Shown here: positions 16,885-36,520 of the stretch, in pieces
Numbering within the stretch: the first letter of the stretch is position 1
Layout: the number at the start of each line of letters is the position of its first letter
NCBI RefSeq assembly: GCF_002287235.1
Contig: NZ_LMVP01000135.1
Span: 1-43,282 of the forward strand
Source: Methanosarcina spelaei
Lineage (GTDB): Archaea > Halobacteriota > Methanosarcinia > Methanosarcinales > Methanosarcinaceae
Direction: 5' to 3'
DNA length: 43,282 nt
Program-made: the position numbers and the translations under genes
Notes under the pieces: generated by a model
Databases searched by the model: none
The model's input: only the letters and a program-made list of their open reading frames with translations
Told to the model about the DNA's origin: nothing

Positions 16885-17128
16885 CTTTGCAGCCTTGCGA
16901 AATAATCAATTTAAGCTTAATTCAAATGGCAATTATTATTTTTAAGCGTTGCCCTCAATTCTGCTGGAAAGAGCTCAATTCTTATTTATTTAGTTAATTG
17001 TGAATATAAACATTATATTAATTATTCTATTTTTCTCAATGTTTTTTTGGTTCAGGTCCAGTCTATGCTGGAATTTTGCAAATAGATATTATTATAGCCC
17101 CCTCCCTATTTCTTCATTCAGATAAGGC

Positions 17129-19085: not shown

Positions 19086-19805
19086 ATTATCACAAATAAA
19101 AATAAAGAGGTTTAATTATAAATAGTTAATCTAATTTTCTTAATTTGAATACATTTTTTATAGTAATCCTATTTATATAATATAAACAAAAAATAGTATT
19201 ATTTTACTCAATTCCCAAATCAAATTTGATATTATAATTATTAATATGCAAAAATGATTTAATGCATTTATATCTTTCCAATATAAATTAAAACTATGTA
19301 CTAATTACAATAATGTTGTTTTTCTTAAAAGTTTGATTTCAAGTCAAAATTGTGCAAAAAAGACATATAAAGCTTTTAAATTTAGGACTTATGCACTTGA
19401 GGAACAAAATCAATTACAGGAAAGACTGTAAATTAAATTGAACTTTAAAAGAAACACGATTTTTGCCTGAATTTTCAATAAAAACTAATAGCAAGAAGCA
19501 CCTTTGCAAATTGGTAATTGTATTACCCAGTGATCATCGGTTAAGGAATTTTCTTGCCTGCTAGCTATCGATTTTGCATCCAAATCCTGCTTTAAGGTTT
19601 AGCCTATTTACGTGGAATCGATGCCCTATTCCAGCTTATAACTTATTGAACTATTTGATAAGTGTTGAGGATTTACGCAATTTGTCATGATTCCTCACTT
19701 AACCGAAGACGCATGAGAAGGAATTCGTTTATTACTAAAAGTAATTGTCAGGCAGCCTGCGAAGTGCGAAGATTCTTCTTTTGCAGTATCAGAAGCTTTT
19801 TCGGG
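19086..19805. other. Long AT-rich spacer with an inverted repeat
   Basis: No gene is supported in these 720 bases. The sole structure seen is TCGGTTAAG at 19537-19545 facing its complement CTTAACCGA at 19698-19706; the outer arms also pair loosely (GGAATT against ATTCC). The same core occurs in the inverted repeat at 9766-9902. The small frame at 19662-19883 has no coding signs. Confidence 0.5.
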
Positions 19806-20318
19806 TTATTGAGATTGTTTAGTAATGTTATTATGAATCTCAGAATATTTCGGGCTATCTGGATAAAAGACGCTCAATGTTGAATCTACATTTTGTACTC
19901 TCCGAACGCCCTGATTATACGGAAAAATAATAGTGAGCACGTCGGAATGAATCCCTAATTTTCGAGAGTCATGCATATAATCATGACCCTCTTTCTGCGA
20001 AACGTTTGTCAGCTGGATTGTGGCACTGTTAAGTCCTATATCCTTTATTTGCATTTCTGGAAATTTGAAAAATATTTCCTTCATTTTTGGCTCTATATTT
20101 TTACTGCCAAAAAGGAATATATATGCCTTGGCAAATGGAGATAGATGATATTCAACATCAATTGTTGCATTTGTTCCACTAAACTCCATTACTATATTGT
20201 CAATATGGATATACTTTCCTTCCCTATATTGCTCAGAGTTCATTGCTGGAGCTATTCTTGCAGCCAATAAAACGGCCGAAATAATAAAGGTAATTATAAC
20301 TATTGATTTTAAGTTCAT
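19806..20318 (-). CDS. Exported or membrane-anchored methanogen protein, function unknown
   Basis: A 170-aa protein with an N-terminal hydrophobic signal or anchor (KSIVIITFIISAVLLAARIA). The remainder is a beta-rich extracellular domain: YIHIDNIVMEFSGTNATIDV, FLFGSKNIEPKMKEIFFKF, and SDVLTIIFPYNQGVRRVQNV. I believe similar proteins occur in other methanogens but cannot name a family. The start ATG at 20318 is the only one that keeps the signal. The end is hydrophilic with no second membrane helix. It stands alone next to a MITE-like element. Confidence 0.6.
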   Translation of the reverse strand: MNLKSIVIITFIISAVLLAARIAPAMNSEQYREGKYIHIDNIVMEFSGTNATIDVEYHLSPFAKAYIFLFGSKNIEPKMKEIFFKFPEMQIKDIGLNSATIQLTNVSQKEGHDYMHDSRKLGIHSDVLTIIFPYNQGVRRVQNVDSTLSVFYPDSPKYSEIHNNITKQSQ

Positions 20319-20388
20319 AGTGACTCAGTTCCAGAATCTAGTTATAAAAATAAATGTAACATCATTACATATTTATAATTTTATAATT

Positions 20389-20529
20389 GAACCTATCAAT
20401 AACTCAAAACTGTTTCTCCGAATCTGGAATTCAGAATAATCAATGAGTTTTTGATCACATTTAGATCACAAGGGATTGTTCTGAAACTTCTATCAGGTTT
20501 GAGTATAAGGCTGGTTTTAGGATAAGCTC
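20389..20529. mobile_element. MITE-like element, copy B
   Basis: About 140 bases with no coding capacity. The right end TTTTAGGATAAGCTC (20515-20529) and the left end beginning GAACCTATC form an imperfect inverted repeat. The inside shares TTTCTCCGAATC and further patches with copy A at 27022-27151. The ends resemble those of the IS5-like element at 28444-29424 (GAGCCTATCCGAAAA). Confidence 0.5.
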
Positions 20530-20532
20530 TCT

Positions 20533-20911
20533 TTATCTCTTCACTCCAGCCTCCTCCGTCATATAGCACCCGAAATAGGTGTTTTTCTCTACTTTTCTCA
20601 GGATATTGTTTATATTTTCAAGTGCAACTTCCATCTTTTCTATTCTCTTCTCGATCTCTTTAATCTGACAAGAATTACTTGGTCTGTAGTCATAATTTCA
20701 GCCCTCGTATATATTTACAGGTTAGCTTAATAGAAGCTTTTGATGTATATTTCTGTATGCTCTTTTTGTATGTTCTACAATCATTTATATAGTCAACGTG
20801 CTTATTCCAAAACTCAATATTGCTTCTCTGAATTTTAACTTTGCTTTCAAAGATGATTGATTTTCCGTTATCTTGCGGCTTTATTTGTGTATGCCTAACA
20901 AAAGAATAATC
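20533..20911 (-). pseudogene. Two decayed ORF fragments of unknown origin
   Basis: On the minus strand a 74-codon frame (20690-20911) without a start codon reads IIFESKVKIQRSNIEFWNKH then VDYINDCRTYKKSIQKYTSK. It ends where a second frame (20533 to about 20700) begins, reading CQIKEIEKRIEKMEVALENI then NNILRKVEKNTYFGCYMTEE, a coiled coil. Both look like genuine protein, and could be one gene split by a shift or two linked genes. I recognise neither. They lie directly behind the decayed IS1634-type transposase and may be cargo or an older gene. Confidence 0.4.
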
Positions 20912-20929
20912 CTACAAATAACGATTATG

Positions 20930-22163
20930 TTAAGATGGTAGATGTTTCCCCATGTTCAGAAAAGAAAATAATGATGCTTGCTTTGTGTCCATTTCTTCCA
21001 CAATAATTTTGCTTTCTTTGGATTCTTTTTCCTGGACTACACAATCCTAATCTCAGACAGTTTTTTAACTAGTTGTTTCATAAAAAACCCATATATCTTT
21101 GTCTCCCATGCCAAATATCTGTAGAAAAGCAGGCCAATCATAACCAAATAATACATGAACCCTTATATTTTCATCCTTATGATGACATACTAATATAGGG
21201 ACAAGCAAATGATCGTTCAACAGCTTAAAATCGTCTTCAACAAGGTTTTTGCTGTTACATGTTTTTACTATCTTTTTAGTACGCTACTCGTGCTTATCCG
21301 TAAACAGGATGTTTTTCCCAAATATTTTTTTACACTTTTTTTGTTCTCCTCATCAACCCAGAACCTCAACTGAGACGTTTTCTTACCTTCAGGAGCTTCA
21401 ATTATTTCATATTTTATGACACTCCGGAATTTTTTCAGAATAATTTCTGAAACTTCATTTTCTACACTGCTCCTGTTTCTCTCTTTTCCTTTACTGCTTT
21501 CTAATCTTCGCTGCAAGTCTTTGAGTTGATCAATTATTTTTGATTTGTTTGTTTCATAAGTACTTTTTTGAAATTTGTAAGTCCCTTCGTTGTAGGTGAT
21601 TACAGTTGTGAATTCTGTTCCGTAGAACTGGTGTTTTGTCCGTACCCAAAAATCTCGTTACTTTTTGTGTTCTTATACAGGTACTCATACCTTGAAAGTG
21701 GAACATCAAGGAGTTCCTCAGCCTGATTTGCTTTTGCGGCTCCTACAAAACTCATTTTTGAGGTTACCTTTTCAATGTTGTCTTTTGAGTTGTTACCCTT
21801 ATCGAAAACAAGAACAGAATCGTCAGAACAGATATTTAATTCAGTCAGTCGATTTATAATGTTGTCTACAATGCCTGAAAATTCTTTCAAATCAGGAACA
21901 TTTCTAGGATACGTTTCGTGAATAAAGGGTATATTGCACGCATTTTAACCTATGTAGAAGTCATGAGGATTAAGGTACAAAGATGAAAGAGGAGTTGAAT
22001 GCAAAAATACACCTGCAAGAGAGGCAGGAATTGTGGAGTCAAAATGGACTTTAGAGGAACTGCTGACATTCAGGTGTTTTAAAACATCAATCAAATAAAA
22101 ATTGACCATCAAACAATTTTTCAACATAAAAATCAAACTGTCAAACTCAGGATTAATAAACAA
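20930..22163 (-). pseudogene. Decayed IS1634-type transposase
   Basis: Scattered frames on the minus strand rebuild a transposase of the IS1634 group. In order: IHETYPRNVPDLKEFSGIVD, VLVFDKGNNSKDNIEKVTSK, FVGAAKANQAEELLDVPLS, IKYEIIEAPEGKKTSQLRFW, KHE, VEDDFKLLNDHLLVPILVCH, HKDENIRVHVLF and IIVEEMDTKQASLFSFLN, ending at a stop at 20930-20932. Several stops and shifts interrupt it, and about 35 residues are missing between FYI (near 21945) and the HETYP segment. It cannot make an active enzyme. Confidence 0.85.
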
Positions 22164-22481
22164 ATTCTTTGAAAAAAATATTAAAGAGTGTGTTTTTCAA
22201 AATCATTGCAACTCATTTGAAAGTTTCACAGATCTTTTGTATAAATTTGCCAGTCTCTTCTTACATTCTCTGCACTTCTCCTTTACAAGCTCTCTCATAA
22301 GCTTTATATTATGCAGAATAGTTACATCGTGTATTACTCCCTGCAATTTTCTTGCTTACTTCTCTCACAGAAAAGTCAGGTCTTTTCGAAGATTCGAAAA
22401 GATACGGGCTCGTTTGCTTGGCTGTTCCAATAAATGTTTTCCCGGCCTGAGTCCTGAAGAATTAATTAACAACAATAAAAC
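22157..22481. other. IS-end hairpin remnant and spacer
   Basis: Bases 22157-22215 match the hairpin segment at 88-140, with a decayed stem (AAACAAATTCTTT against AAAGAGTGTGTTT). This would be the outer end of the decayed transposon. The rest to 22481 shows only an open plus-strand frame (from 22102) that runs over IS sequence and is not a believable gene. Confidence 0.45.
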
Positions 22482-23459: not shown

Positions 23460-23524
23460 CTTAATTTGAAATCTCACATTTACAGATTTAACCAGTTTGT
23501 TGGTTGTTGGTTGGTGATCCGGAC

Positions 23525-24376
23525 ATGAAAGTAGCCTGTATCCAGATGGATGTGCTGCATTGCAGAAAGCAGGAAAACCTTGAAAAAGCCCTGCATATGG
23601 CTCTCAAAGCCGTAAGAAAAGGAGCCGAACTTATTGTTTTACCCGAAGTCTTCTCAACAGGGTTTTGCTACGAGTACTTTGACCATGCAGCAGAGATCTT
23701 GCCTTCTTCTCTCCTTGAAAACCTGGCCTGTTTCTCCGATGCCAATGACTGTGTTATCATGGGCTCAGTAATTGAAAAAGTCGTTTCGGAAGAGACTTCT
23801 GACAGTGGGAAACCCGTGGATTCTGAAAATTCTACTCTTTCGGATTTCAGTAATTCTTCGTTTTATTACAATCTCGGTTTTTGCTTTGAATCAGGCACTC
23901 TTGCAGGTAGTTATCGGAAAACTCACCCCTTCAAAACCGAAAACAGTTATTTCTCAAAAGGCAGTTCTATAGAGCCCATTTCTCTTAAAAAGCAAAATCT
24001 GAAAATAGGTTTTGAAATCTGCTATGAACTCCGCTTTCCCGAGGTTGCAAGAAAACTTTCCCTTGCCGGTTCTGACCTGCTTGTGACCACAGCCGCATTT
24101 CCCAATCCAAGGTCTGAACACTGGAAAATTCTCGCAAAGGCAAGAGCAATTGAAAACCAGATCCCACATATTGCCTGCAACCGGATAGGTTCTGCTCCTG
24201 ACTGCAGTTATTTCGGAAACTCCATGATAATAGATGCCTGGGGTGAGGTAAAAGCCGATGCGGGCAATAAAGAATGCATAATAGTGCATGACCTTGACCT
24301 GTCTGGAAAAAACGAAGTCCGTAAAATGATTCCTGTTTTTGAGAATAGGAGAACTGAACTTTACTCTGAAGATTAA
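23525..24376 (+). CDS. Nitrilase-superfamily carbon-nitrogen hydrolase
   Basis: A 283-aa amidase-type enzyme, cytoplasmic. The catalytic triad is E41 (LPEVF), K132 (YRKTHPF) and C166 (EICYELRFPE). Start ATG at 23525 is chosen because GGTGAT lies six bases before it and the protein then begins MKVACIQMDV as in the family. The closest groups are omega-amidase/NIT2-like and related archaeal amidases; the substrate cannot be told. An acidic, serine-rich insert of about 25 residues (85-110) is unusual. A scrap of a very similar gene lies at about 31510-31572. Confidence 0.88.
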   Translation: MKVACIQMDVLHCRKQENLEKALHMALKAVRKGAELIVLPEVFSTGFCYEYFDHAAEILPSSLLENLACFSDANDCVIMGSVIEKVVSEETSDSGKPVDSENSTLSDFSNSSFYYNLGFCFESGTLAGSYRKTHPFKTENSYFSKGSSIEPISLKKQNLKIGFEICYELRFPEVARKLSLAGSDLLVTTAAFPNPRSEHWKILAKARAIENQIPHIACNRIGSAPDCSYFGNSMIIDAWGEVKADAGNKECIIVHDLDLSGKNEVRKMIPVFENRRTELYSED

Positions 24377-24728
24377 AAGAATATTTTAGTCTTCTTTCGA
24401 TAATAATTTCTGTAACTGTTAATACTACTCCTCTTATTAGGAACTGGTTTATCTCAATTGACCGAATCTGATTTTCCGATTCAGAGGATGTTTTTATTAT
24501 GTTCAATCAGAGGCTGTTTTTTTACACTTTATCCTCATGTTTCAGAACACAATGTAATCACCATATAAAAAAATGTATATTTATTAACAATCTAATAAAT
24601 GACTGGAGTATAACATAATTTTTTGCCAAAAATACTAAAAATTAAGAACAATCTGTTACTTTTAACCCTTAAATCCATGTTGAATTGAAAAATAAAATAT
24701 GCCATGAAATTTAAATTTTGGAGGAACA
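24377..24728. other. Upstream region of the protease-exporter pair
   Basis: A 352-base AT-rich spacer without a gene. CCATATAAAAAAATGTATATTTATTAAC near 24562-24590 offers a TATA-like box. GGAGG at 24719-24724 serves the next gene. Confidence 0.5.
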
Positions 24729-25646
24729 ATGATTCCTAAATACAGATACAAACCCTGGACCTATTTTGCTGCGACCTTTATTGCAACTTATGCTCTCTGG
24801 TTTGCAGGAGCATATCTAAGTTTTCAGGATGAAAAAAATGGACTTTATATGTTATTTATGTTTTTTGGATTGCTAGTACCTTTTCTACTCTCGTTTTTTG
24901 TGATCTTTACGTCAAAAAATTCGGGTTTAAAAAGAGATTTTATTAACCGACTTATCAACCTCAGGTTAATAAAGCCAAAAATGTTTCCAGTATTTTTTTT
25001 AGTAATGCCTCTGACTGTTCTCATATCTATTTTTATTTCGCTTCCGTTTGGAGGATCAGTTTCGCAGTTTCAACTTGCTGATGGTTTCTCTTTTTCGACA
25101 GGGTCCGTACCTACGTTGGTTTTTCTTATGCTTGCTGCATGTTTTGAAGAACTTGGATGGAGAGGGTATGCATTTGACAGTCTGCAGAGCCGTCACACCT
25201 ACTTCATGGCATCAATAATTTTCAGTATACTATGGTCGCTCTGGCACTTTCCTCTGATATTTGTCAACCACTTCTATCAGTACGAAATTTATCACGAAAA
25301 CATATTGTATGCGGTAAATTTTTTTGTCGGTATCATTCCTATGGGGGTATTTGTCAGCTGGATCTGCATTAAAAATGGAAAAAGTATTCCTGCAGCAATT
25401 CTCTTTCACTTTATTGTAAATATCTGCCAGGAGGCACTGACTGTGACTCAGACAACCAAATGCATTGAGACTCTGGTTATTACTTTAGTTGTCGCTATTA
25501 TTATTGTATTAGACAAAGAAATGTTCTTTTCAAAAGTAAGTCCTGCTCCTGAAACTCAAAATCTTGTTTCTGAAACTCAAAATCCTGCTCCTGAAACTCA
25601 AAATCCTGTTTCTGAATCTCAAAATCCTGCTCACGAGGTTCACTAA
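24729..25646 (+). CDS. CPBP-family intramembrane metalloprotease
   Basis: A 305-aa membrane protein with about eight helices. The CPBP/CAAX-protease motifs are present: EELGWRGY with E140, E141 and R145, the WHFPL histidine near 172, and HFIVN near 226. These place catalytic residues inside the membrane. Such proteins process prenylated or peptide substrates or give immunity to bacteriocins; the substrate is unknown here. The tail holds four 7-residue repeats of the type PAPETQN/PVSESQN encoded by 21-bp repeats, an unusual add-on. GGAGG precedes the ATG. The stop is directly followed by the exporter start. Confidence 0.88.
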   Translation: MIPKYRYKPWTYFAATFIATYALWFAGAYLSFQDEKNGLYMLFMFFGLLVPFLLSFFVIFTSKNSGLKRDFINRLINLRLIKPKMFPVFFLVMPLTVLISIFISLPFGGSVSQFQLADGFSFSTGSVPTLVFLMLAACFEELGWRGYAFDSLQSRHTYFMASIIFSILWSLWHFPLIFVNHFYQYEIYHENILYAVNFFVGIIPMGVFVSWICIKNGKSIPAAILFHFIVNICQEALTVTQTTKCIETLVITLVVAIIIVLDKEMFFSKVSPAPETQNLVSETQNPAPETQNPVSESQNPAHEVH

Positions 25647-26993
25647 ATGACAGGCGAATCTGAAAAAATGACAACTGAACAAAAAAATCTTTACTCCAGA
25701 TTCCTTTTTATCTGGTTTGGACAATTTATCTCAGTAATAGGTACCGGACTTACCATTTTCTCCTTAGGTGTATATGTATATCAGCAAACAAATACTACTT
25801 CTAGCTATGTTTTTATACTGATGTGCGTCTTTTTACCGCCCTTCATGCTAAAACCCTATGGAGGAATACTGGCAGACCGTCATGATAGACGTTTAATGAT
25901 GATTTTAGGGGACTTAGGAGCTACTTTCGGACTTCTTTTCATATTTTTTATGATGCTAAAAGGAAACATCCAACTCTGGCAAATTTACCTTGGGATTGCA
26001 ACAAGTTCTGTTTTTTCGGCTTTTCAGGAACCAGCCTATAAAGCTTTAATTACCGACCTCTTACCTGAAACTCAATATGCCAGAGCAAGTGGACTGGTGC
26101 AGCTAGCAAGTTCTGCCCAATATCTGATTTCTCCTTTTTTAGCCGGAATTTTGTTAACAATAATTGATATTGAGTTTATATTTTTAATCGATACCGTCAC
26201 TCTCTTAATCTCCAGTTCTATTGTCATCTGGATAAAAAATATTTCAGGCAGGGCGAAAATAGACCAATCTAAACAAAACGTCATAGAGGACCTTAAAGAG
26301 GGAGTGAAAGAATTCTCAAAAAATAGAGGTGTAGTTAATCTGGTTATTGTTACCATGATCATATTGTTTTTTGTAGGACTGCTTCAGTCTCTTTTTATTC
26401 CACTGCTTCTGGGCTTAACAACAGTAAAGACAGTTGGGATCTCTCAATCAATATGTGCCTCAGGCATACTAATCGGAAGCCTGTTTATTGGAGTATTTGG
26501 CAGCAAGAACGGGTATGTAAAAATATTATCTATTTCTTTGTTCCTATCAGGCATATTCTTTGCAAATCTAGGGCTCTCAAAAAATGTAATATTCATTACT
26601 TTAGCAGGATTCATGTTTTTTGCCACTTTGCCTTTTATTAACACCTCTATTGAGGTCTTAATCAGAAAAAGTATTGACAATAGGAAACAGGGGCGTGTAT
26701 GGTCTCTCATTTCCATGATTACCTATCTTGGCTCCATAATGGCTTTTGCAGTTGCAGGTTTCTTAGCAGATAAAGTTTTCAATCCTCTTTTGGAGGTGGA
26801 CGGTTTACTGGTTAAAACAGCAGGTCTTATTGTCGGAATAGGAGAAAACAGGGGGATTGCCCTTATGTTTATAATCTCCGGACTAATGATCTCTATAATT
26901 GCTTTATTAATCTGGCAAAACGAGAAAATAAAAAGATTAGAATATGTTGAAAGTCAGGATTCGGACATAATCTTATCCTATCAACCGGGCTGA
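25647..26993 (+). CDS. MFS exporter, macrolide-efflux-like
   Basis: A 448-aa transporter of the major facilitator superfamily with 12 predicted membrane helices. The N-terminal part (FIWFGQFISVIGTGLTIFSL and VYVYQQT) and motif A (GGILADRHDRRLMM) match the MFS_3 group of macrolide and siderophore exporters. Substrate is unknown. The ATG abuts the stop of the protease gene (TAAATG) with GAGGT in that gene's end, so the two are translationally coupled and likely serve one process, such as export of a peptide or drug. The end is short and hydrophilic. Confidence 0.88.
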   Translation: MTGESEKMTTEQKNLYSRFLFIWFGQFISVIGTGLTIFSLGVYVYQQTNTTSSYVFILMCVFLPPFMLKPYGGILADRHDRRLMMILGDLGATFGLLFIFFMMLKGNIQLWQIYLGIATSSVFSAFQEPAYKALITDLLPETQYARASGLVQLASSAQYLISPFLAGILLTIIDIEFIFLIDTVTLLISSSIVIWIKNISGRAKIDQSKQNVIEDLKEGVKEFSKNRGVVNLVIVTMIILFFVGLLQSLFIPLLLGLTTVKTVGISQSICASGILIGSLFIGVFGSKNGYVKILSISLFLSGIFFANLGLSKNVIFITLAGFMFFATLPFINTSIEVLIRKSIDNRKQGRVWSLISMITYLGSIMAFAVAGFLADKVFNPLLEVDGLLVKTAGLIVGIGENRGIALMFIISGLMISIIALLIWQNEKIKRLEYVESQDSDIILSYQPG

Positions 26994-27021
26994 TAAATTA
27001 ACAGGCATTAACTTATTTATC

Positions 27022-27151
27022 GAGCTGATCCCAAAACTAAAAATTGCTTCTCTGAATCCTGTATTTCGAATGATCACTCAAGTTTCTGATCATGACAACA
27101 ATCCTGAAAATTCTTGATGATTAAGAACTAAATGGCTTTTGGGATAGGCTC
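27022..27151. mobile_element. MITE-like element, copy A
   Basis: GAGCTGATCCCAAAA at 27022-27036 and TTTTGGGATAGGCTC at 27137-27151 are inverted copies (13 of 15 match). The roughly 100 bases between them have no coding capacity and resemble copy B at 20389-20529 in patches such as TTCTCTGAATC. The right end equals the ends of the IS5-like element at 28444-29424 over GAGCCTATCC and AAAA, with one base difference between. Confidence 0.6.
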
Positions 27152-27280
27152 ATCAATAAAAAAATTTATGAGAAATGCTTCCTGACTCAGTGAAAATTTT
27201 CCTGTCCATAGGAGTAATTTCACTCAAATTTCAGTAAGCTCTTCCGCCTGTCTACGCGGCAGACTTAAAGAAAGACACAC

Positions 27281-27501
27281 TATAACAGATAAATGTTATA
27301 CTCCCTATAACAGATAAATGTTATACTCCCTATAACAGATAAATGTTATACTGGCCCGAAAAACCTGTAATTTACTTCTAGGATATTATGAACAAATCCT
27401 GAGCAAATTTTATCCCTGGTAAGAGAAGATCGAAGAAGAATCTTTTTCATAGCAGTGTATAAATTCAAATGTCTTTTTCATAGCAGTGTATAAGTTCAAA
27501 T
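27281..27501. repeat. Two short tandem repeats (25-bp x3 and 31-bp x2)
   Basis: TATAACAGATAAATGTTATA, itself a palindrome with TATAAC/GTTATA arms, occurs at 27281-27300, 27306-27325 and 27331-27350, with CTCCC joining the copies. A second repeat with a 31-base period starts at 27441 and 27472 (TCTTTTTCATAGCAGTGTAT, differing once later). Both lie in a gene-free part between MITE copy A and the DUF3303-like pseudogene. Confidence 0.9.
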
Positions 27502-27582
27502 ATTTTGACAAAGATTTCTATAGAAAAGCAAAACTATGATAAAAATTTCAAAATACAGTGATGTTCAGGAGAGATCAGAGAA

Positions 27583-27880
27583 ATGCTGTTTCTGGTAATA
27601 AGTAACCCTCACCCTCCCAGGCCATCAGAAGCGAGAGATTCGAGAATAAATTTTCGGTCCTGAATTGAAGATCTGATTTCAAAAAATAAAGTTATCTGTT
27701 TTTATCCCAGAGTGGGGGAGAGGGTCTGTAGTAGTATTCAATGCGAGTTCAAACGATGAGCTTCATGGGTTTATGACACAGTGGCTGGAAATAGTTCCGG
27801 CAAACTTTGAAATTTATCCGCTGGCAACTCTAGCCGAGGCTGAAGATGCTCTTAAAGGAAGTTGTATTGGTATCTCATAG
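27583..27880 (+). pseudogene. Broken DUF3303-like small protein gene
   Basis: Starts MLFLVISNPHPPRPSEARDS with AGGAGAGATCAGAGA before the ATG. An in-frame TGA interrupts near 27661, after which VICFYPRVGE continues in the same frame. A single-base shift near 27716 then gives GSVVVFNASSNDELHGFMTQ and WLEIVPANFEIYPLATLAEA before the stop at 27878-27880. The pieces in order rebuild a roughly 100-aa protein of the DUF3303 type. The gene has been lost by at least two changes, unless the sequence has errors. Confidence 0.65.
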
Positions 27881-27970
27881 TCAAACTGCCACTTTTTATG
27901 TATTTATGCATTGAAATTAGATTTATCGGAAAACAAAAGTTTTTGTGGTTGCAAAGTAGAGGATAGATAG

Positions 27971-28405
27971 ATGACTGCTGAGATCTATGAAGTTGTATTG
28001 AATGATTTTGATGAGATTATCAAGCTTCTTAAGCAGCTTTGGCCCGACAAAACATTGGACTGCAATGCATTAATGAAAATCATTTCCATTGGCATTGGAT
28101 CTAAGGATAGTATCTATCTATGTACTAAAGTTGATGATAAGGTAGTCGGGTTCTGTTCTTTGATAATTAGAGAAAGCCTCTGGCAGGAAGATCTTGTAGG
28201 ACATATAAATGAATTGATAATCGACAAATCATTTAGACGCATGAATCTCGGCACTGAGTTATTAGACGCTGCTATTGCTGCTGCGAAGAAAAAAGGATGC
28301 AAACTAATAGAACTCGATTCGGCTTTTCACCGTGAAGATGCACATAAATTCTATGAAAATATCGGCTTCACAAAAAGGGCATATCTTTTTTCAAAAGAAA
28401 TATAA
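27971..28405 (+). CDS. GNAT-family N-acetyltransferase
   Basis: A 144-aa acetyl-CoA-dependent acetyltransferase, cytoplasmic. The GNAT core is visible: VDDKVVGFCSLIIRES (strands 2-4 region), HINELIIDKSFRRMNLGTEL with the acetyl-CoA loop (R/Q-x-x-G/A pattern RRMNLG), and CKLIELDSAFHREDAHKFYE plus NIGFTKRAYLFSKE. The pattern is close to aminoglycoside 6'-type and other small-molecule acetyltransferases; the substrate is unknown. ATG at 27971 follows GAGGATAG. It lies upstream of the IS5-like insertion, beyond which a histidine phosphatase follows on the same strand, and the two may once have been neighbours. Confidence 0.85.
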   Translation: MTAEIYEVVLNDFDEIIKLLKQLWPDKTLDCNALMKIISIGIGSKDSIYLCTKVDDKVVGFCSLIIRESLWQEDLVGHINELIIDKSFRRMNLGTELLDAAIAAAKKKGCKLIELDSAFHREDAHKFYENIGFTKRAYLFSKEI

Positions 28406-28443
28406 TCATGGAGTATAATATCCTGGAGTTTCCGGGCCTGACA

Positions 28444-29424
28444 CTTAGAGCCTATCCGAAAAGTATTTGGATTACATTCCTAGTGTCATGAAAACTTAAT
28501 TGTGGATCATCATTTTAAACCAAAACAATATCATCTGATGGTGTTCATCTAAATAATTTGTTCTTAATTTGGGTTTTCACGATACTAGTAATGTTTGGTA
28601 TTGAGAACACGCAAAACGGGACACGACTACGAGATCTCTGATGAATTCTGGAATAAAATACAACCTTTATTACCACTGCCCAAACCTAAAAAGAAGGCTG
28701 GAAGACCTAGAGAAGATGATAGGAAAATTATGAACGGTATTCTCTACCTCCTTCGTACGGCTGCCAATGGAAAGCGTTGCCAAGATTTTATGGAGCACCA
28801 AGCACCGTACATGATAGATTTGAGGAGTGGCAAAAAGCTGGATTATTTGAGAATATGTGGCAAGCTGGTCTACTGGAGTACGATAATGAAAAAGGGTTAG
28901 AGTGGGAATGGCAAGCTATTGATGGAGCGATGACAAAAGCACCATTAGGTGGGGCTGGAACAGGAGCCAATCCCACTGATCGCGGCAAAAAAGGTACAAA
29001 AAGGAGTCTGTTAACTGATGGTAAAGGCATACCACTTTCAGTAACAGTGGATGGAGCAAATAGTCACTATAAAAAGCTTGTAAAAGGAACTCTTGATTCC
29101 AGAATTATTCAAAAACCTTCGCATAAAGTAGTTCAAAATATATGTATGGATAAGGGATATGATTTCCCTGATATAAGAGAACTGGTTGAGGATTATGGTT
29201 ATACTGCTCACATCAGAAAACGTGGAGAAGAAAACATAAGAAAAAAAGAGATATCAGGTTACAGAGCAAGAAGGTGGGTAGTGGAAAGAACACATTTGGC
29301 TCAATAGATTCAGAAGGCTACTTATTAGATGGGAAAAGAAAATTGAAAATTACATGGCTATGCTGCATTTAGCATGTACATGGATAACTTTCAAAGCAGC
29401 AGGACTTTTCGGATAGGCTCTAAG
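28444..29424 (+). mobile_element. IS5-like insertion sequence with perfect 21-bp ends
   Basis: The left end (28444-28464, starting CTTAGAGCCTATCCGAAAAG) and right end (29404-29424, ending CTTTTCGGATAGGCTCTAAG) are perfect inverted copies over 21 bp. Total length is about 980 bases. The inner part holds a transposase reading frame broken in two places (separate entry). The outermost bases CTTA and TAAG could include a TA or TTA target duplication. The element splits a space between two plus-strand genes. Confidence 0.88.
28595..29416 (+). pseudogene. IS5-family transposase, frameshifted twice
   Basis: The first frame runs from TTG 28595 (RTRKTGHDYEISDEFWNKI, KAGRPREDDRKIMNGILYLL) and shifts near 28757, where one G appears missing from CGTACGG; the second frame then carries WKALPRFYGAPSTVHDRFEE, the DDE segments AIDGAMTKAPLGG and NICMDKGYDFPDIREL, and RARRWVVERTH. 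A second shift near 29298 leads to LNRFRRLLIRWEKKIENYMA and a stop at 29414-29416. The first shift could be a programmed one, but the site does not look like a slippery heptamer. It is therefore probably inactive, although its perfect ends point to recent insertion. Confidence 0.85.
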
Positions 29425-29522
29425 CAATATAATTAAGGAATCATGATAAAGCCGAACTGGTTAAGGAAATATTGTCAAAGGATACTTAACAATTCCTGGA
29501 AAGCCGAGCAAGGAGATGTAAA

Positions 29523-30152
29523 ATGAAAAATATTATTACTATTCAGCACACGCAATCTGTCCATCATACGAATGGGATGATAGGCGCCTGGACTGATTGG
29601 GAGTTAACTGAGCTGGGAAAGCAACAGGCATTCAACATCGGTAAAGCCTTGAGAAAAGAAATAACAAATAAACGTTATGTTATGTATGCATCTGACTTGT
29701 TGCGAGCCAAGCAAACTGCAGATATTATAGCTTGCTTATTGGAAATTGTACCAATTTATAAGAGGGAACTTCGAGAAATTAACTTAGGAAGCGCCACTGG
29801 GAAATCGGTTAAATGGTTACATAAGAATCAAATTAAGCAGGATATGTATACATCGTCACTGGACTATAAATGTCTACCAGATGCGGAATCAAAACGAGAT
29901 TTATATCGCCGATTGCTTCCTTTTTTACATGAAGTACAAAATTCTCAGGAAGAAAACATTATAATAGTTTCACACGGCGGCACATTAAGCATGCTATTTT
30001 ACATATGGCATAGTCACGACATCAATAATTTGGACCACACGGAATTTCAGGGCATCTCAGGAGGAGTTTCAGTTTTAAATGAAAATGATAAAGGAGTAAG
30101 AATTATACGAAAGTTAAATGATTTATCCTACATATCTAACACCGTCAGATAA
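29523..30152 (+). CDS. Histidine phosphatase (phosphoglycerate-mutase-like)
   Basis: A 209-aa enzyme of the histidine phosphatase fold. The N-terminal motif is IQHTQS, with the phospho-accepting H9 but Gln where most members have Arg in RHG. The second histidine is in VSHGG near residue 150. YASDLLRAKQTADII and LREINLGSATGK are family segments. ATG follows AAGGAGATGTAAA, a good ribosome binding site. The substrate may be a sugar phosphate or a nucleotide. The QHTQS variant is shared with some firmicute sequences, as far as I recall, which would fit gene transfer. Confidence 0.82.
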   Translation: MKNIITIQHTQSVHHTNGMIGAWTDWELTELGKQQAFNIGKALRKEITNKRYVMYASDLLRAKQTADIIACLLEIVPIYKRELREINLGSATGKSVKWLHKNQIKQDMYTSSLDYKCLPDAESKRDLYRRLLPFLHEVQNSQEENIIIVSHGGTLSMLFYIWHSHDINNLDHTEFQGISGGVSVLNENDKGVRIIRKLNDLSYISNTVR

Positions 30153-30171
30153 GTACAGAAAATTTGGATAA

Positions 30172-30329
30172 GTATCCAATTTCAATAACACGGCTGTCGT
30201 TTTTGATGTATTCGCCGAGAAGCTTTTTGGTGTAATGAGACTCTAAACCACTTGCTCTCGACTGTATAACTCTAATGTCTCCTTGCCGTTCGCATATTTT
30301 TCGTGGACTCTATCTTGATTAGTTGCCAT
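30172..30329 (-). pseudogene. N-terminal stub of a SAM methyltransferase
   Basis: Begins at ATG 30329 as MATNQDRVHEKYANGKETLE, then a one-base shift before GLESHYTKKLLGEYI and KNDSRVIEIG, and the match stops at the first glycine of the SAM motif (usual continuation IEIGCGTG). After that the sequence is unrelated. The start lies only 10 bases after the stop of the acetyltransferase, so the two were probably an operon. The rest of the gene has been deleted. Confidence 0.65.
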
Positions 30330-30339
30330 GCTGTTCACT

Positions 30340-31146
30340 CTATTCTAATCTTATTTCATCAACTCTGCCACGGGGGACAAAACCAACGTTTGTGTATGCT
30401 TTGTTTGATGACGGATTGGAAAGGTCGGCATATAAGATCGGGATTTTTCCTTCCGCAATTATCAGTTTACAGATATGTGCGACTATAGCTCCGGCAAAGC
30501 CACAGCATCTGTGTTCCGGCAATGTGTAGACTTCATTAATCGCAACATGCTTTTCTGTTTTCCTTGCGATTTTTGCCATTGCGACTGGCTTTCCGTTTTG
30601 TCGGATAACAAAGGATTGCAGAGTTTTGATTATATTTTCCGCTTCTTTCATACTGTCTTCCCGAGACATTTCACGGCCAAAACACTCGCGCGCATAACAG
30701 CGGGACAACTCCGCAATAGTTTCAAGATCGTCGAGCATAGCTCTTTCGACAATGACAGAATTATTTTTTGGAGGTATAATTTCAGGGCACTCAAAGCTTT
30801 GCATTTGTATGCGGTGAAGGGTGGCATTCTTTTCCTTAATGAATATTTCAGCAATGGCAGAAGCAACATCGGGCTTTGCGACATAATATGCCATATTACC
30901 GATATTGAAGTTTTCATAAAAACATTCGCATAGTTCTCTGAGTTCTGGTTTGCCTATATTTTCTGCCGTCCATATCCATGTCGGTACCGTGGGAAAAAGT
31001 ACACTGCAAATGATATAGCTTTTCTCATTGCTTAAAAGCAACTTTGCGGATGATTTTAGGACTTCAATTAGACTAAATGGAACGATATCTTTTTGATATG
31101 CTTCACTCTTAAAGATCGGATGGGTGTAATCAATTTTGGCTGACAT
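30340..31146 (-). CDS. GNAT-family acetyltransferase with extra N-terminal domain
   Basis: A 268-aa protein. Residues 130-268 are a GNAT domain: VERAMLDDLETIAELSRCYA, FVIRQNGKPVAMAKIARKTE, then INEVYTLPEHRCCGFAGAIV with the acetyl-CoA loop, and ILYADLSNPSSNKAYTNVGF. The N-terminal half is a poorly conserved domain found in similar two-domain acetyltransferases. The substrate is unknown. The ATG follows GGAGG, and the stop of a broken upstream acetyltransferase is directly before it (TAATG). Composition is similar to the surroundings but sequence style looks firmicute-like. The downstream methyltransferase is only a stub. Confidence 0.82.
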   Translation of the reverse strand: MSAKIDYTHPIFKSEAYQKDIVPFSLIEVLKSSAKLLLSNEKSYIICSVLFPTVPTWIWTAENIGKPELRELCECFYENFNIGNMAYYVAKPDVASAIAEIFIKEKNATLHRIQMQSFECPEIIPPKNNSVIVERAMLDDLETIAELSRCYARECFGREMSREDSMKEAENIIKTLQSFVIRQNGKPVAMAKIARKTEKHVAINEVYTLPEHRCCGFAGAIVAHICKLIIAEGKIPILYADLSNPSSNKAYTNVGFVPRGRVDEIRLE

Positions 31147-31500
31147 TATATTTTCCTCCTGTATCGTATAGCCACGAGCTGTTTTCCGTAGTTAGTTTCT
31201 TCTCTTGCTCCGTCAAATGCAAAGCCGCAATTTTCATAAAAAGGTCTTGCCGACGTATTTTCCTCAAGCACATGCAATACAATCGCTTTTTTACTCATTG
31301 AGAGCATAAGACAGAGCGAAATCTATTGCTTGTGTACCAAAATCCTGATGGTGATAATCGGGTGTGAATATAAACCGTGCAGTTCATAGAAGTTGTCATC
31401 CAAGTCATTATCTCGCAGCGGCACGACGGTCATTATGCCGACGGTTTTGCCGTCAAGTTTAAGCGCATAATGCCGGTGCAGGCACCTCCCGCAATGCCTA
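31147..31500 (-). pseudogene. Frameshifted GNAT acetyltransferase
   Basis: Reading down the minus strand, three frames join into one GNAT domain: GRCLHRHYALKLDGKTVGIM and VVPLRDNDLDDNFYELHGLY, then DYHHQDFGTQAIDFALSYAL, then KKAIVLHVLEENTSARPFYE and NCGFAFDGAREETNYGKQLV. At least two single-base changes break it. It ends directly at the start of the intact acetyltransferase, with its stop overlapping that gene's upstream region. The 5' end stops near 31500, next to the nitrilase scrap. Confidence 0.75.
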
Positions 31501-31509
31501 GAACCTTAT

Positions 31510-31572
31510 TCAGAATCAAAAATAGTTATTTCTCAAAAGGTGGCTCAATAGAGCCGATATACATTTTGAAAT
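31510..31572 (+). pseudogene. Scrap of a nitrilase-family gene
   Basis: The translation KNSYFSKGGSIEPI matches ENSYFSKGSSIEPI of the nitrilase gene (codons 140-153, near 23943-23984), and the DNA is nearly identical over AATAGTTATTTCTCAAAAGG. About 55 bases are preserved, with nothing of the gene before or after. It marks a duplicated or rearranged segment at the border of the acetyltransferase remnant. Confidence 0.7.
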
Positions 31573-31632
31573 GGTACTAATCCTTCAATAATATACTTAC
31601 TGGTTAGTTTTAATTCAATTTTTTAGTTAAAA

Positions 31633-31686
31633 GTATCAGTTAATTAAACTGTATCAGTTAATTAAACTGTATCAGTTTGTTAAATT
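31633..31686. repeat. Three copies of an 18-bp tandem repeat
   Basis: The unit GTATCAGTTAATTAAACT occurs at 31633-31650 and 31651-31668, then a changed third copy to 31686. It lies just beyond the MarC-like fragment. Confidence 0.85.
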
Positions 31687-31691
31687 GTATT

Positions 31692-31886
31692 TTAATTTCC
31701 TAAACCAAATATATTTATTATACCTATAGCCGCCAGGTCCACTGCAATAGCCCCAAGCAAAAGGCCCATTGACCTTGTAAAGACCAGCATTCCGTTATAC
31801 CCTCTAAATTTGTGAATCCTTGGTGAGAGGGGGAGATAAAAAGACTTAAATTTCTTAATGGTGCCTGTTTTATTCTTTTTAGGCAC
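31692..31886 (-). pseudogene. C-terminal fragment of a MarC-like membrane protein
   Basis: The 64-codon frame ends GYNGMLVFTRSMGLLLGAIA then VDLAAIGIINIFGLGN, which has the pattern of the last helix of the MarC/UPF0056 family (TRxMGLLLAAIAV). The first 30 residues (KKNKTGTIKKFKSFYLPLSP) look unrelated. Only the end of a 200-aa protein remains. If translated it would be a one-helix peptide, but decay is more likely. Confidence 0.5.
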
Positions 31887-32338
31887 TTACTCTAATTTTC
31901 AGACCATTCTTTTTGTTTTTTATGATCTCTATCAGGCCACAACAACTTAAATCAAGGTCCTAATCGAGGTCTTAACAGAAAAACATAAACTCTAAATTTT
32001 TGTGTGATCCTTAAACGGGAAATTTCTATTTGATCTAGGTCAAAACTTAAACATTTAATTTTCTTGTTTGAATCAGCGTCGTCACTGGAAGTTCTTCAAA
32101 ACTCTCTGAAAACCATTTCCTAGTCAGGAGTTTTATTTAGCTTGGTTAAAAAGCATCAAAACCTGTTAAAAAACCTATTGAATTATTATTTCTCTTTTAG
32201 ATTAGAAAAGGAAATTAAAGGATTATCATAAATAAAAACATATGAGTTTATGATACCAAAAACGGCAAGAAATATAAAAAAGATCAAGAAGCCTTTGTGG
32301 CTTCTTTCAATCTCTATAATTCTTCATTTACTCTTCTT
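31887..32338. other. Spacer ending in the leuS terminator
   Basis: No gene is supported in these 452 bases. The right part holds the leuS terminator (separate entry). The left part is AT-rich with no repeat or RNA structure that I can identify. Confidence 0.5.
32271..32306 (-). terminator. leuS terminator
   Basis: Read on the minus strand, AAGAAGCC-ACAAA-GGCTTCTT is a perfect 8-bp hairpin (32286-32306), followed by GATCTTTTTT. It lies about 33 bases after the leuS stop codon. Confidence 0.75.
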
Positions 32339-35239
32339 TTAATCTTCTTTCTTTTCTTCAATATAAATAGCGGGCCTGAGAGGTTCGGCAAACCTTGACT
32401 TCTTTCCAGGGTCAAAGGCAGGAGAATCGGCACTGTGGACTTCAACAAGGCAGACAATCTCTTTTTCCAGGAACGAAATTGACTCTTTCAAGAGAGTCTG
32501 TTCATCAATGTTAGGACCTGTAAGGATTTCATACCTGTCTGCGCTCCCGCTTTTGAACTCCTGAACGATTTTCTGTACAAACTTCGGGATTTCCTTGCCG
32601 AAACGCTTGAGGTCAGGGTTTGCCATTAGCTTTTTAATAAGAGTGCCTACTTCGAGCGAACATTCAAGCTGCATCTCGCAGGCGCACCTTATTGCTTCGG
32701 CTTTCCAGGCAGGTGCTGTGTAGAGGTGAACCTTCTGTGGGGTCATCTTTGTTACCCTTATGATTTCCTCAACGTCTTCCAGGGTTCCCTTTATCATTTC
32801 TTCGGCAAGCTCAGCACCGTCATCTATCAGATCTTCGTTATAGAGTGGGTACTGGGCAAGGGAGATAGGGTCCTTATGCCCCATTGCTTCCCAGATTTCC
32901 TCACAGAGGTGCGGGGTAAAAGGAGACATAAGCCTGACCCAGTTGTCCAGCACATAGTAGAGCAGGGTCTTTCCTCCCCGTCTCTGGTACCATTTGACAT
33001 CATTTTGCAGCAGGAAGAACGAGTTCTGGATTGCTTCCCTTGTCTGGATGGAGTAGAGGGCTGCATTCGTATCTCGGATATAGTTCTGCATCCTCGAAAG
33101 TATCCAGCGGTCGATTTGCTTTAGCTCAGTGCTAAGGTCCGCACGTTTTCCGCTCTCAATAACACTATTTGCAAAAGAATAGAACCTGTCTACCTGCCTT
33201 CTGGCAGATTCGATTCCTGTCCTCTGCCAGTCTGCATCCTGCGTCTGTTCGGCTGTGGAAAGGATATACATTCTTGTTATATCCGCACCATATTTGCTGA
33301 CTGCGCTTTCCATTGTCAGGATCGGGCCTTTGGACTTGCTCATTTTCTGCCCTTCAAGGGAAACGAAACCGTTTACTGCAAGAGCTTTAGGCCACTTTTC
33401 CTCTTCAAAGAGGGCTACGTGGTGGAACAGGAAAAAGAGCAGATGGTTTGGGACAAGGTCTTTGCCTGAAGAGCGAAGGTCAACCGGATACCAGTAATTG
33501 AAATGCCTGCGGATCTCTTCAAGAAGCTCCGGACTGAGGCCAGTATCCGCACTGGCTGCTGCCAGATCGCTCTTTCCAAGCAGGATATAGTCAAAGAATG
33601 ATAGAGTGAGATTTTCGATCTTCAGTTCACCGTTTTCGATAAACCTGGCAATGACATAATAACTCATATAAATTGTCGAATCCCCTAGAGATTCAATCAA
33701 CCATTCCTTATCAAATGGAAGGCGGGTTCCAAGGCCTTTCCTGCGAGCGCAGGCTTTATCCTTAAGCCAGTCAACCTTGTTTTCAAACTCGACCCTGTAC
33801 TCTTCGGGAATAACTCGCATCTGATCCAGGCATTTATAGACCTTTGCTTTCCATTCGGGATTTGAATAGTTAAGGAACCACTGGCCTTTGACCATGTTTA
33901 CGACACAGGGAGTACCGCAGCGGCAAACAACAGGTTCGCTGAATTCATAAAAGGTCTCACCGGCATTTGAGCTAACGAAGTCTCTGGTAAGGATATCCTT
34001 GATTTTAGAGACAGCCTGTCCTTCGTATTTTCCTGTAAGCTCCTTAAGGACTCCACCGTGGAACTCCCTTCTGTATACAATCTTTGTAGCTTCCTCAGCT
34101 TTCGGGTCTTTCTGGCTTGTAATTCCCATGCTTTCAACGATTTCCTTTGCAGGGAATTCCCCGAATTCATGCACCTTGATAAGGGAAATCAGCTTAATGT
34201 TCCTGAGGTCTTCGGTTATTCCGTACTCGCTCAGGTCGGCATCGTAAAGGTCGCGAAGAGCCAGGTAGTCAAAAGGTGCATGGGCAGGCACGCTCATTAC
34301 TATTCCGCTCCCGTTTTCAGGTCTGACAAAAGATGCAGGGAGGGAAATTATTTTGTCACCCGTAACCGGGTTTGTGAGTTTTATTCCTATTATGGATTTT
34401 GCAGGTACGTCTTCAACATACTCGACTGTCCGGTCCGTAAAAGTCAGTTTTCGGAAAGCTTCTTTGCTGACAACCCAGAACTCTTCATTTTCGCCCTGCG
34501 TGACCTTTGCTTTTACATAGGTTACGTCAGGATTAACCCATAGATTAGTCACTCCGTACGTCGTTTCCGGCCTGAGGGTTGCACAGGGCAGAACCAGGTC
34601 TTTATACCGAAACTTGATCAGAGTATATTCGACAATGGTAGCTTCTTCCCCATGGAGGATATCGTGGTCTTCCACGGGGTTATTGTCGTTCGGGCACCAT
34701 TTTACCGGATGGGAGCCTTTTACAATCAGGCCCTTTTCTTCAAGCCGGATATACTGCCATTCTATAAATTTCTTATATGTTGGGTCAGTCGTTGTAAACT
34801 TGCGTCTCCAGTCAATGGAATATCCGATATTACGCATTGCTTTCTCGGATTCGCGTTTGAAATAATCAACAATTTTTTCAGGGGTATTGAGCGTCGGCAG
34901 GATATCTCCTGGAATTCCATGGAGGCGTTCATAGACGTCCATGGTCTGAGGGTCCCGATTTGCAATCAGTTCAGCAAGCCCCACAATGGGTGTACCTGTC
35001 ACATGAAAGCCCATAGGGTACAGCACGTTATACCCGAGCATTCTTTTATGCCTTGCAACAACATCCCCTATTGTAAAAGTCCGGGTATGTCCCGCGTGCA
35101 GGTTCCCATTCAGGTAGGGGTAGGGGATGGTTATGAAAAATTTTTCTCGTTTATCGGGCTCGGCCTGAAAAATGTGGCTTTCATTCCACTTTTTTTGCCA
35201 TTTCTTTTCGATCTCGTGAGGCTTATAATCCTGCTCCAT
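32339..35239 (-). CDS. leuS: Leucyl-tRNA synthetase (archaeal type)
   Basis: Charges tRNA-Leu with leucine. The 966-aa protein is the normal archaeal length. HAGH at residues 48-51 is the HIGH motif, KMSKSKG near residue 632 is the KMSKS loop, and the editing domain lies between (for example LRPETTYGVTNLWVNPD and GIVMSVPAHAPFDYLALRD). The C-terminal part holds the tRNA-binding segments. Start ATG at 35239 has GGTGTGA before it and the protein begins as its relatives do. Only 63 bases separate it from the threonine synthase stop, so it may share that transcript. Sequence is intact. Confidence 0.97.
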   Translation of the reverse strand: MEQDYKPHEIEKKWQKKWNESHIFQAEPDKREKFFITIPYPYLNGNLHAGHTRTFTIGDVVARHKRMLGYNVLYPMGFHVTGTPIVGLAELIANRDPQTMDVYERLHGIPGDILPTLNTPEKIVDYFKRESEKAMRNIGYSIDWRRKFTTTDPTYKKFIEWQYIRLEEKGLIVKGSHPVKWCPNDNNPVEDHDILHGEEATIVEYTLIKFRYKDLVLPCATLRPETTYGVTNLWVNPDVTYVKAKVTQGENEEFWVVSKEAFRKLTFTDRTVEYVEDVPAKSIIGIKLTNPVTGDKIISLPASFVRPENGSGIVMSVPAHAPFDYLALRDLYDADLSEYGITEDLRNIKLISLIKVHEFGEFPAKEIVESMGITSQKDPKAEEATKIVYRREFHGGVLKELTGKYEGQAVSKIKDILTRDFVSSNAGETFYEFSEPVVCRCGTPCVVNMVKGQWFLNYSNPEWKAKVYKCLDQMRVIPEEYRVEFENKVDWLKDKACARRKGLGTRLPFDKEWLIESLGDSTIYMSYYVIARFIENGELKIENLTLSFFDYILLGKSDLAAASADTGLSPELLEEIRRHFNYWYPVDLRSSGKDLVPNHLLFFLFHHVALFEEEKWPKALAVNGFVSLEGQKMSKSKGPILTMESAVSKYGADITRMYILSTAEQTQDADWQRTGIESARRQVDRFYSFANSVIESGKRADLSTELKQIDRWILSRMQNYIRDTNAALYSIQTREAIQNSFFLLQNDVKWYQRRGGKTLLYYVLDNWVRLMSPFTPHLCEEIWEAMGHKDPISLAQYPLYNEDLIDDGAELAEEMIKGTLEDVEEIIRVTKMTPQKVHLYTAPAWKAEAIRCACEMQLECSLEVGTLIKKLMANPDLKRFGKEIPKFVQKIVQEFKSGSADRYEILTGPNIDEQTLLKESISFLEKEIVCLVEVHSADSPAFDPGKKSRFAEPLRPAIYIEEKKED

Positions 35240-35302
35240 TCGTGTTCACACCCATCGATTATTTTTCTACTATTATTCCTATTGTTATCAATTTTTCAAG
35301 TT

Positions 35303-36520
35303 TTATTTCATTTTTCCGAAGATAGCTTCCCGGATGGCTTCTATACTAGCATCCACAACAATAGGCTCTTCGCAGACGTCAATTACGGTCTGCGGGTCTT
35401 TAAGCAGGTGCCCTGTAGTAATACATACAACGGTCTCGTCTCTGCTTATAACACCCATATCAATAAGTTTCTTAAGCCCTGCAACTGAAGCCGCACTTGC
35501 AGGTTCGACACCTATTCCTTCAAGCCTTGCAAGGTCTTTCTGAGCTGCAAGGATCTCTTCGTCAGTAACGGATTCTGCAGTCCCTCCTGATTCCCGGATA
35601 GCAGCAAGGGCTTTTTTGGCGTTAACAGGATTTCCGATCCTGATTGCTGTTGCAACGGTTTCGGGTTTTTCCTCAGGAGTTATTTCAGGAGCCTCGCTCT
35701 TTATGGCTTTTACAATGGGGCAGGAGCCTGCAGCCTGGATTCCGGTCATCTTCGGGAGTGAGTCCGTTATGCCAAGCTTCTTAAATTCCCTGAAGCCCTT
35801 CCAAATAGCTGTAATGTTTCCTGCGTTTCCTACGGGCAGGACGATTCTGTCAGGTACTTTGAAGCCTAGCTGATCTGCAATCTCAAAACCGATAGTTTTC
35901 TGACCTTCCAGCCTGTAGGGGTTGATTGAGTTTAAGAGATAGATCTTCTCCTGGGAACAGAGGGTGCGCACAAGGGCAAGCGCGTCGTCAAAATTTCCAC
36001 GAATGCTGAGGACCTTTGCTCCATGCATAAGGGCCTGGGCTACTTTTCCAAGAGCAACTTTTCCTGCAGGCAAAAGTACGATGACAGGAATCCCGGCTTT
36101 TGCCCCATAGATTGCAAGGGCTGCTGAGGTATTTCCCGTAGATGCGCAGGCAACGGTGCTCATGCCCAGTTCAAGAGCTTTTGTAACTCCTACGGTCATT
36201 CCCCTGTCTTTAAAAGAGCCTGTAGGGTTCATGCCTTCGTGTTTCACATAAAGCTTTTTAATTCCGATTTTCTCAGCCAGGCGGTCGCATTTATAAAGTG
36301 GAGTTCCGCCTTCCCTGATAGTTACAGGCTCTCTTTCTATAGGAAGAAGTTTTGCGTACTTCCAGACCGAAGGGCATTCAGTCTTCAATTTTTCCATGTC
36401 TATTTTAATTGAGGAATAGTCATAAATAACGTCAAGCAGTCCATCACATTTGCTGCATGTGTAAATTACTTCATCTTTTGAATACTCTGCACCGCATTCG
36501 ATACATTTGAGATGATACAT
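35303..36520 (-). CDS. thrC: Threonine synthase
   Basis: Makes threonine from O-phosphohomoserine with pyridoxal phosphate. The 405-aa protein carries an N-terminal zinc ribbon (C6, C9, C22, C25) as in archaeal forms, the PLP lysine K104 in GSFKDRG, the substrate loop ASTGNTSAALA, and the PLP-phosphate loop PVGNAGNITA. The end, VDASIEAIREAIFGK, is family-like. ATG at 36520 follows GGAG. leuS follows on the same strand 63 bases later, giving a small amino-acid operon. Confidence 0.96.
   Translation of the reverse strand: MYHLKCIECGAEYSKDEVIYTCSKCDGLLDVIYDYSSIKIDMEKLKTECPSVWKYAKLLPIEREPVTIREGGTPLYKCDRLAEKIGIKKLYVKHEGMNPTGSFKDRGMTVGVTKALELGMSTVACASTGNTSAALAIYGAKAGIPVIVLLPAGKVALGKVAQALMHGAKVLSIRGNFDDALALVRTLCSQEKIYLLNSINPYRLEGQKTIGFEIADQLGFKVPDRIVLPVGNAGNITAIWKGFREFKKLGITDSLPKMTGIQAAGSCPIVKAIKSEAPEITPEEKPETVATAIRIGNPVNAKKALAAIRESGGTAESVTDEEILAAQKDLARLEGIGVEPASAASVAGLKKLIDMGVISRDETVVCITTGHLLKDPQTVIDVCEEPIVVDASIEAIREAIFGKMK

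Follow-up and report, generated by a model that had tools for sequence, protein, structure and literature searches.

The DNA analysed here, referred to below as the window, is a stretch of 43,282 nt from Methanosarcina spelaei (assembly GCF_002287235.1, contig NZ_LMVP01000135.1, positions 1 to 43,282, forward strand). The feature under study was first drawn at 27583-31886 of the window, where an initial annotation had listed three acetyltransferase genes, one of them broken, a histidine phosphatase gene, a truncated methyltransferase gene, an element resembling the insertion sequence (IS) IS5, and scraps of DUF3303, nitrilase and MarC genes. Pfam matches, reading frames and sequence matches confirmed every piece of this inventory: the acetyltransferases GNAT1 and GNAT2 are intact, and GNAT3 is a broken remnant. 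The natural limits of the feature are wider, and comprise the whole interval (24377-32338) between the nitrilase-type (carbon-nitrogen hydrolase) gene nit and leuS, including a CPBP and an MFS gene. The left border, nit (23504..24376, plus strand), keeps its place and order in nearly all relatives, and leuS (32339..35239, minus strand) forms the conserved right border. The two genes are convergent, and the spot corresponds to the interval between their 3' ends.

The leuS neighbourhood was compared across up to 24 related genomes (designated by G-numbers), among which G004 and G027 are the nearest relatives of the window genome. In the 15 relatives where nit and leuS are still adjacent, they are separated by 148, 196, 222, 259, 313, 337, 382, 1012, 1146, 1490, 1790, 2057, 4553, 4656 or 10,383 bp. 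The interval exceeds 1 kb in 8 of these 15 genomes, and that of the window measures 7963 bp. In the same genomes, leuS and thrC are spaced by 33-438 bp and the genes labelled DHS and ADC by 298-755 bp, while the ADC-wH and wH-nit spacings are stable except for one outlier each (3175 and 5346 bp). The nit-leuS interval is the most variable of the six adjacent gene pairs measured, which serve as a local and not a genome-wide control; relative to its neighbours, the locus does show the high gene turnover expected of the proposed hot spot. Its cargo also varies from species to species. In five further genomes (G001, G008, G010, G011 and G030), nit was not found beside leuS within the fetched stretch, which makes the interval a rearrangement break as well. 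No integrase was seen among the open frames of the window or of the relatives' intervals, and the sole insertion sequence in the nit-leuS interval of the window is an inactive IS5 element. A tRNA-targeted island was rejected, as there is no tRNA in the window. As a separate observation, an orphan protein of 313-330 aa without a Pfam match adjoins nit or leuS in six Methanosarcina genomes (L063:5036-5980; also L042, L043, L045, L051 and L062), and is absent from the nit-leuS interval of the window.

A DNA profile of nit was then searched against all fetched neighbourhoods. In the window it matched at 31476-31560 (E=4e-8; best E with Markov-shuffled sequence, 1.7), around a displaced nit piece at 31509..31558 (plus strand) that corresponds to codons 136-159 approximately and is 82% identical to the intact gene at 23504-24376. 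Three other genomes carry such pieces: G023 (9519-10028, E=6e-72), G026 (3138-3222, E=6e-17) and G001 (6759-6845, E=4e-11). All four lie on the same strand as the intact nit, downstream of it and beyond the cargo, which consists of a histidine kinase gene in G023, a CPBP gene in G026, a histidine phosphatase gene in G001 (where the nit piece begins directly at the phosphatase stop) and the whole array in the window. All derive from the 3' 55% of nit. They start at profile positions 386, 395, 498 and 765, those of the window and G023 beginning within about 20 nt of each other. With control profiles of wH, leuS, thrC and DHS, no such pieces were found between nit and leuS. Additional strong matches of the wH profile were limited to the gene itself where it runs off the locus edge (G010) and to a remnant immediately upstream of nit (G014). 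We also considered whether the second nit piece of G023 was a donor copy from a distant lineage, a possibility that was rejected because this piece is sister to the genome's own nit. What is new here is the recurrence of displaced nit pieces at one place in four species or genomes (the window, G001, G023 and G026), and this recurrence would point to recombination anchored in the nit gene.

The intact genes had been viewed as recent cassettes undergoing decay. CPBP, MFS, GNAT1 and the histidine phosphatase instead behave, as judged from sequence comparison, as residents under purifying selection and not as corpses, since their dN/dS (ratio of nonsynonymous to synonymous divergence) is 0.10-0.19 and their closest relatives occur in Methanosarcina, in the same neighbourhood. 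The CPBP CAAX protease gene (24729..25646, plus strand; MmRce1 family, NCBIfam NF041656, 502 bits) is found at the same place in G003, G004, G005, G026 and G030, with a dN/dS of 0.19 to G030. The MFS transporter gene (25647..26993, plus strand; Pfam MFS_1) occupies the corresponding position in G003, G005 and G030, with only a stub in G004, and has a dN/dS of 0.13-0.16. In comparisons with G003, G005 and G030, the synonymous divergence (dS) of these two genes is 0.24-0.35, against 0.27-0.43 for nit and leuS. GNAT1 (27971..28405, plus strand; 144 aa, Pfam Acetyltransf_1, 7e-18) shares 94% amino acid identity with a syntenic gene adjoining leuS in G030, and a remnant occupies the same place in G027. 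Its dN/dS is 0.16, and nit, leuS and thrC have a higher dS to G030 (0.32-0.40) than GNAT1 does (0.17). Although genes of this kind had been described as firmicute-like, no GNAT1 relative was detected at E<=1e-20 in 291 sampled Clostridia, and a firmicute origin of GNAT1 is therefore unsupported. In other Methanosarcina the cargo differs, but CPBP, MFS, GNAT1 and the phosphatase are syntenic. Comparison with G004 and G027 indicates that much of the "graveyard" look corresponds to different deletions of a shared resident set. Base composition and codon usage did not help. The GC content of the interval genes (0.36-0.41) is at or below the core range (0.39-0.475) and their codon scores (-0.07 to 0.04, against 0.036 to 0.135 for core genes) are low, but the resident CPBP and MFS genes are as low in both as GNAT1. 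As these two genes are as AT-rich as the other genes of the interval, composition cannot tell new genes from old.

The histidine phosphatase gene (29523..30152, plus strand; 209 aa, His_Phos_1, 2e-30) is intact and appears to be an old resident of clostridial affinity. Copies 80-86% identical adjoin nit in G007 and also in G001, a genome in which nit no longer neighbours leuS. The dN/dS of this gene is 0.10-0.14, and its dS to G001 and G007 (0.71) is below that of the flanking genes (0.97 and more). Together with the low dS of GNAT1 to G030, this hints at exchange within the genus. In a tree, the three Methanosarcina phosphatases group with copies from Methanoregula and Clostridium frigidicarnis (support 100/99), within a family that is mainly clostridial. 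On this basis the gene would be the product of an old exchange with Clostridia, of unproven direction, and the firmicute affinity previously suggested for it is borne out. The Pfam His_Phos_1 domain scores 106.5 bits, above its cut-off (21.7), as expected of histidine phosphatase branch 1. The RHG catalytic motif was not found; the five aligned relatives all have QHTQS at its position, a sequence conserved from Clostridia to methanogens, while R61, E85 and H151 are kept. By its domain, the protein is assigned to a variant group of the superfamily, and the chemistry of this QHTQS group may differ from that of the other members.

Only the block formed by GNAT3, GNAT2 and the methyltransferase stub looks newly foreign, with bacterial affinity. 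GNAT2 (30340..31146, minus strand; 268 aa, recognized by Pfam) has full-length relatives in Clostridia with 27-37% identity, in 4 of 391 sampled genomes, the best found being 37% identical. Relatives in its own genus are also full-length but only 25-26% identical, and a sample of 294 other Halobacteriota genomes contained no relative at E<=1e-10. GNAT2 was thus probably acquired from bacteria. Relatives in plasmid and phage collections are weak only, so that no vector could be identified. The GNAT3 remnant (about 31146..31500, minus strand; Pfam Acetyltransf_1, 1.4e-5 on the broken reading) overlaps the start of GNAT2 through the stop/start sequence TAATG, with a Shine-Dalgarno-like AGGAGG ahead; its matches are weak and mixed only. 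The methyltransferase N-terminal stub (about 30175..30329, minus strand) is frameshifted and ends at 'VIEIG', cut at motif I for S-adenosylmethionine binding. It has no Pfam hit and no match on plasmids, and it matches a 270-aa clostridial open frame with 44% identity over all of its 53 aa, in 1 of 291 Clostridia. An operon of these three genes preserved in Clostridia was rejected, the trio being absent from the flanks of the GNAT2 relatives in the loci read. The idea of decaying acquired genes holds for this block, of which two of the three genes are broken, but not for the intact residents. It was also observed that two of the four clostridial GNAT2 relatives (L152 and L154) lie directly after an isoleucyl-tRNA synthetase-like gene, while GNAT2 of the window lies near leuS; this may be chance.

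The remaining pieces are mobile debris and local relics. The IS5-family element (28444..29424, plus strand) has 21-bp perfect inverted ends and a transposase match to NF033580 (132 bits, cut-off 110). Its identification was correct, with the amendment that the transposase is a pseudogene with two frameshifts compared with the intact copies of relatives (871-874 bp, single frame of 258-275 aa), and that a second element is nested within it. As to a target-site duplication, the left flank of the IS reads TTA and its right flank TAA, while two copies in relatives have TTA on both sides. The nested insert (28480..28589, strand not assigned) is CTAG-flanked and resembles a miniature inverted-repeat transposable element (MITE). 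Separate copies are found elsewhere in the genus (94-95% identical in G027, 82-85% in G009 and G012), and it is absent from the relatives' IS5 copies. Another MITE-like repeat of 130 bp (27022..27151, strand not assigned) has many copies across the genus with 93-100% identity. In G005 and G030 the flanks are uninterrupted at that point, consistent with insertion in the window's lineage. The ends of this repeat (GAGCTGATCCCAAAA / TTTTGGGATAGGCTC) resemble those of IS5. A fragment of a DUF3303 gene lies at about 27711..27880 (plus strand; PF11746, E=1.2e-3, slightly under the curated cut-off). The MarC C-terminal relic (31692..31886, minus strand; PF01914, E=6e-4) shares 72% identity over 39 aa with a complete MarC located at the same place, between nit and leuS, in G012. 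Both the MarC tail and the nitrilase scrap are what is left of local genes, and not acquired cassettes. Short sequences repeated in tandem, with periods of 21, 25 and 18 bp, are present at 25536-25642 (3' end of CPBP), 27275-27352 (before GNAT1) and 31622-31690 (adjoining the MarC tail), respectively.

Two further features concern the flanks. Over the compared stretch 32339-36520 of the window, leuS is mosaic with respect to G004 and G027. Its 3' part is diverged by about 2-3% and its 5' part by 5-8%, with a step near 34140, so that divergence is two to three times higher in the 5' part than on the side of the interval. No such step was found in comparisons with G003, G005 or G030. This mosaic hints at recombination in the flank, without showing exchange of the interval itself. 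On the other side of nit, the ADC-wH interval of the window (16885-22481) reaches 5.6 kb, against 449-640 bp in most relatives. It holds an IS transposase gene (17129-18196) and two small low-GC genes, and is a second insertion-rich spot of the window.

Altogether, these observations are best accounted for, with a probability that we put at about 0.6, if the region represents a gene-turnover spot, caught in one of its states, between conserved convergent nit and leuS in Methanosarcina, with a layered array and nit-anchored entry. In this scheme, residents shared with relatives (CPBP, MFS, GNAT1, the phosphatase and the MarC relic) would have had different fates from lineage to lineage, being retained, relocated or lost. 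A single block of bacterial type (GNAT3-GNAT2-methyltransferase) would have been added in the window's lineage and then partly decayed, and small elements (a MITE, and the IS5 copy with its nested MITE) would have inserted as well. New DNA would enter by recombination that uses nit as its anchor and joins imprecisely on the far side, leaving a displaced nit piece beyond the cargo, with neither an integrase nor a tRNA involved. The convergent 3'-3' position would lower the cost of insertions, which interrupt neither a promoter nor an operon there. Several points weigh against this scheme. The mechanism is read from scars only, and the picture is no different if part of nit was simply duplicated and then decayed; the pieces of G023 and G026 are closest to the nit of their own genome. 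Most cargo-bearing intervals (G003, G004, G005, G007, G012, G014 and G027) contain no nit piece. The hot-spot control is local, and the thrC-38314 interval is variable too (1168-4315 bp). Finally, the window comes from a draft assembly of 559 contigs, which could conceal a join error, although none is evident.

The closest competitor, which we regard as credible but on balance doubtful, is an ordinary permissive convergent intergenic region with no special entry route, shaped by neutral insertions, deletions and tandem duplications, in which the nit pieces are decayed tandem duplicates. The convergence of nit and leuS and the closeness of the G023 and G026 pieces to their own nit agree with it, and G004 and G027 resemble a single array that has lost different parts. 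It fits less well with the fact that the pieces always lie beyond the cargo and never directly after nit, and that only nit, and none of the four other neighbours tested, left pieces in the interval. The proposal of the initial annotation, a hot spot that recently took up small firmicute cassettes in series and where these are now decaying, is an unlikely account of the interval as a whole. It agrees with GNAT2, GNAT3, the methyltransferase stub and the clostridial family of the phosphatase. On the other hand, GNAT1, the phosphatase, CPBP, MFS and MarC are syntenic in the genus, the intact ones are under purifying selection, and GNAT1 lacks a clostridial relative in the search described above. 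The proposal is refuted for these five genes and stands only for the GNAT2 block. A site-specific integrative element using a site inside nit, restoring nit and pushing the old 3' part outward, would also produce the order seen in four genomes (intact nit, cargo, then a same-strand 3' nit piece), and the close starts of the window and G023 pieces are compatible with a shared site. This mechanism is very improbable and was rejected, as the scattered starts of the pieces reveal no fixed attachment site and the open frames of the four piece-bearing intervals include no recombinase or integrase.

The arrangement recalls the horizontal-transfer hotspots described between core genes without mobile elements, where DNA is proposed to come in through recombination in the genes on either side (Oliveira et al. 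2017, PMC5635113). As in these hotspots, two conserved genes surround a high-turnover interval with no integrase and no tRNA or tmRNA target, the turnover being judged here from the six local pairs. The published cases were found in bacteria within species, whereas nit-leuS concerns an archaeal genus, and the displaced pieces of a flanking gene are an added feature. Homology-facilitated illegitimate recombination, and partial duplications made by transformation, are discussed in PMC3784515. In such events, new DNA that is joined through one homologous anchor, and imprecisely at its far end, can end up with part of the anchor gene duplicated around it. They are known from bacterial transformation experiments, whereas the nit case would be deduced from old scars. 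The mobile element resembles other IS5-family IS (NF033580) in its transposase model match, its inverted ends and its 871-874 bp relatives, and differs from active ones by its two frameshifts and nested MITE-like insert. The bacterial genes of Methanosarcina are reported to come mainly from Firmicutes and Proteobacteria (Garushyants et al. 2015, PMC4455057), and the phosphatase and GNAT2 would add two candidates to such transfers, with the direction of transfer unproven.

The initial observation is thus confirmed and its interpretation partly supported. The individual genes of the interval are ordinary and so is the kind of locus; the one feature worth following is the recurrent displaced nit pieces. 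Methanosarcina genomes are unusually large for archaea and rich in bacterial genes. Most work on these genes has dealt with which genes came, and not with the entry site or the join. A locus such as nit-leuS, at which about 20 genomes allow residents to be distinguished from a fresh bacterial block and from gene-piece scars, would make the entry mechanism testable. It is possible, and we propose it only tentatively, that in Methanosarcina the nit gene beside leuS repeatedly serves as a recombination anchor, to which incoming DNA is joined each time; such events could leave a displaced 3' nit piece behind the cargo, and the locus would then provide a readable record of integrase-free gene entry.

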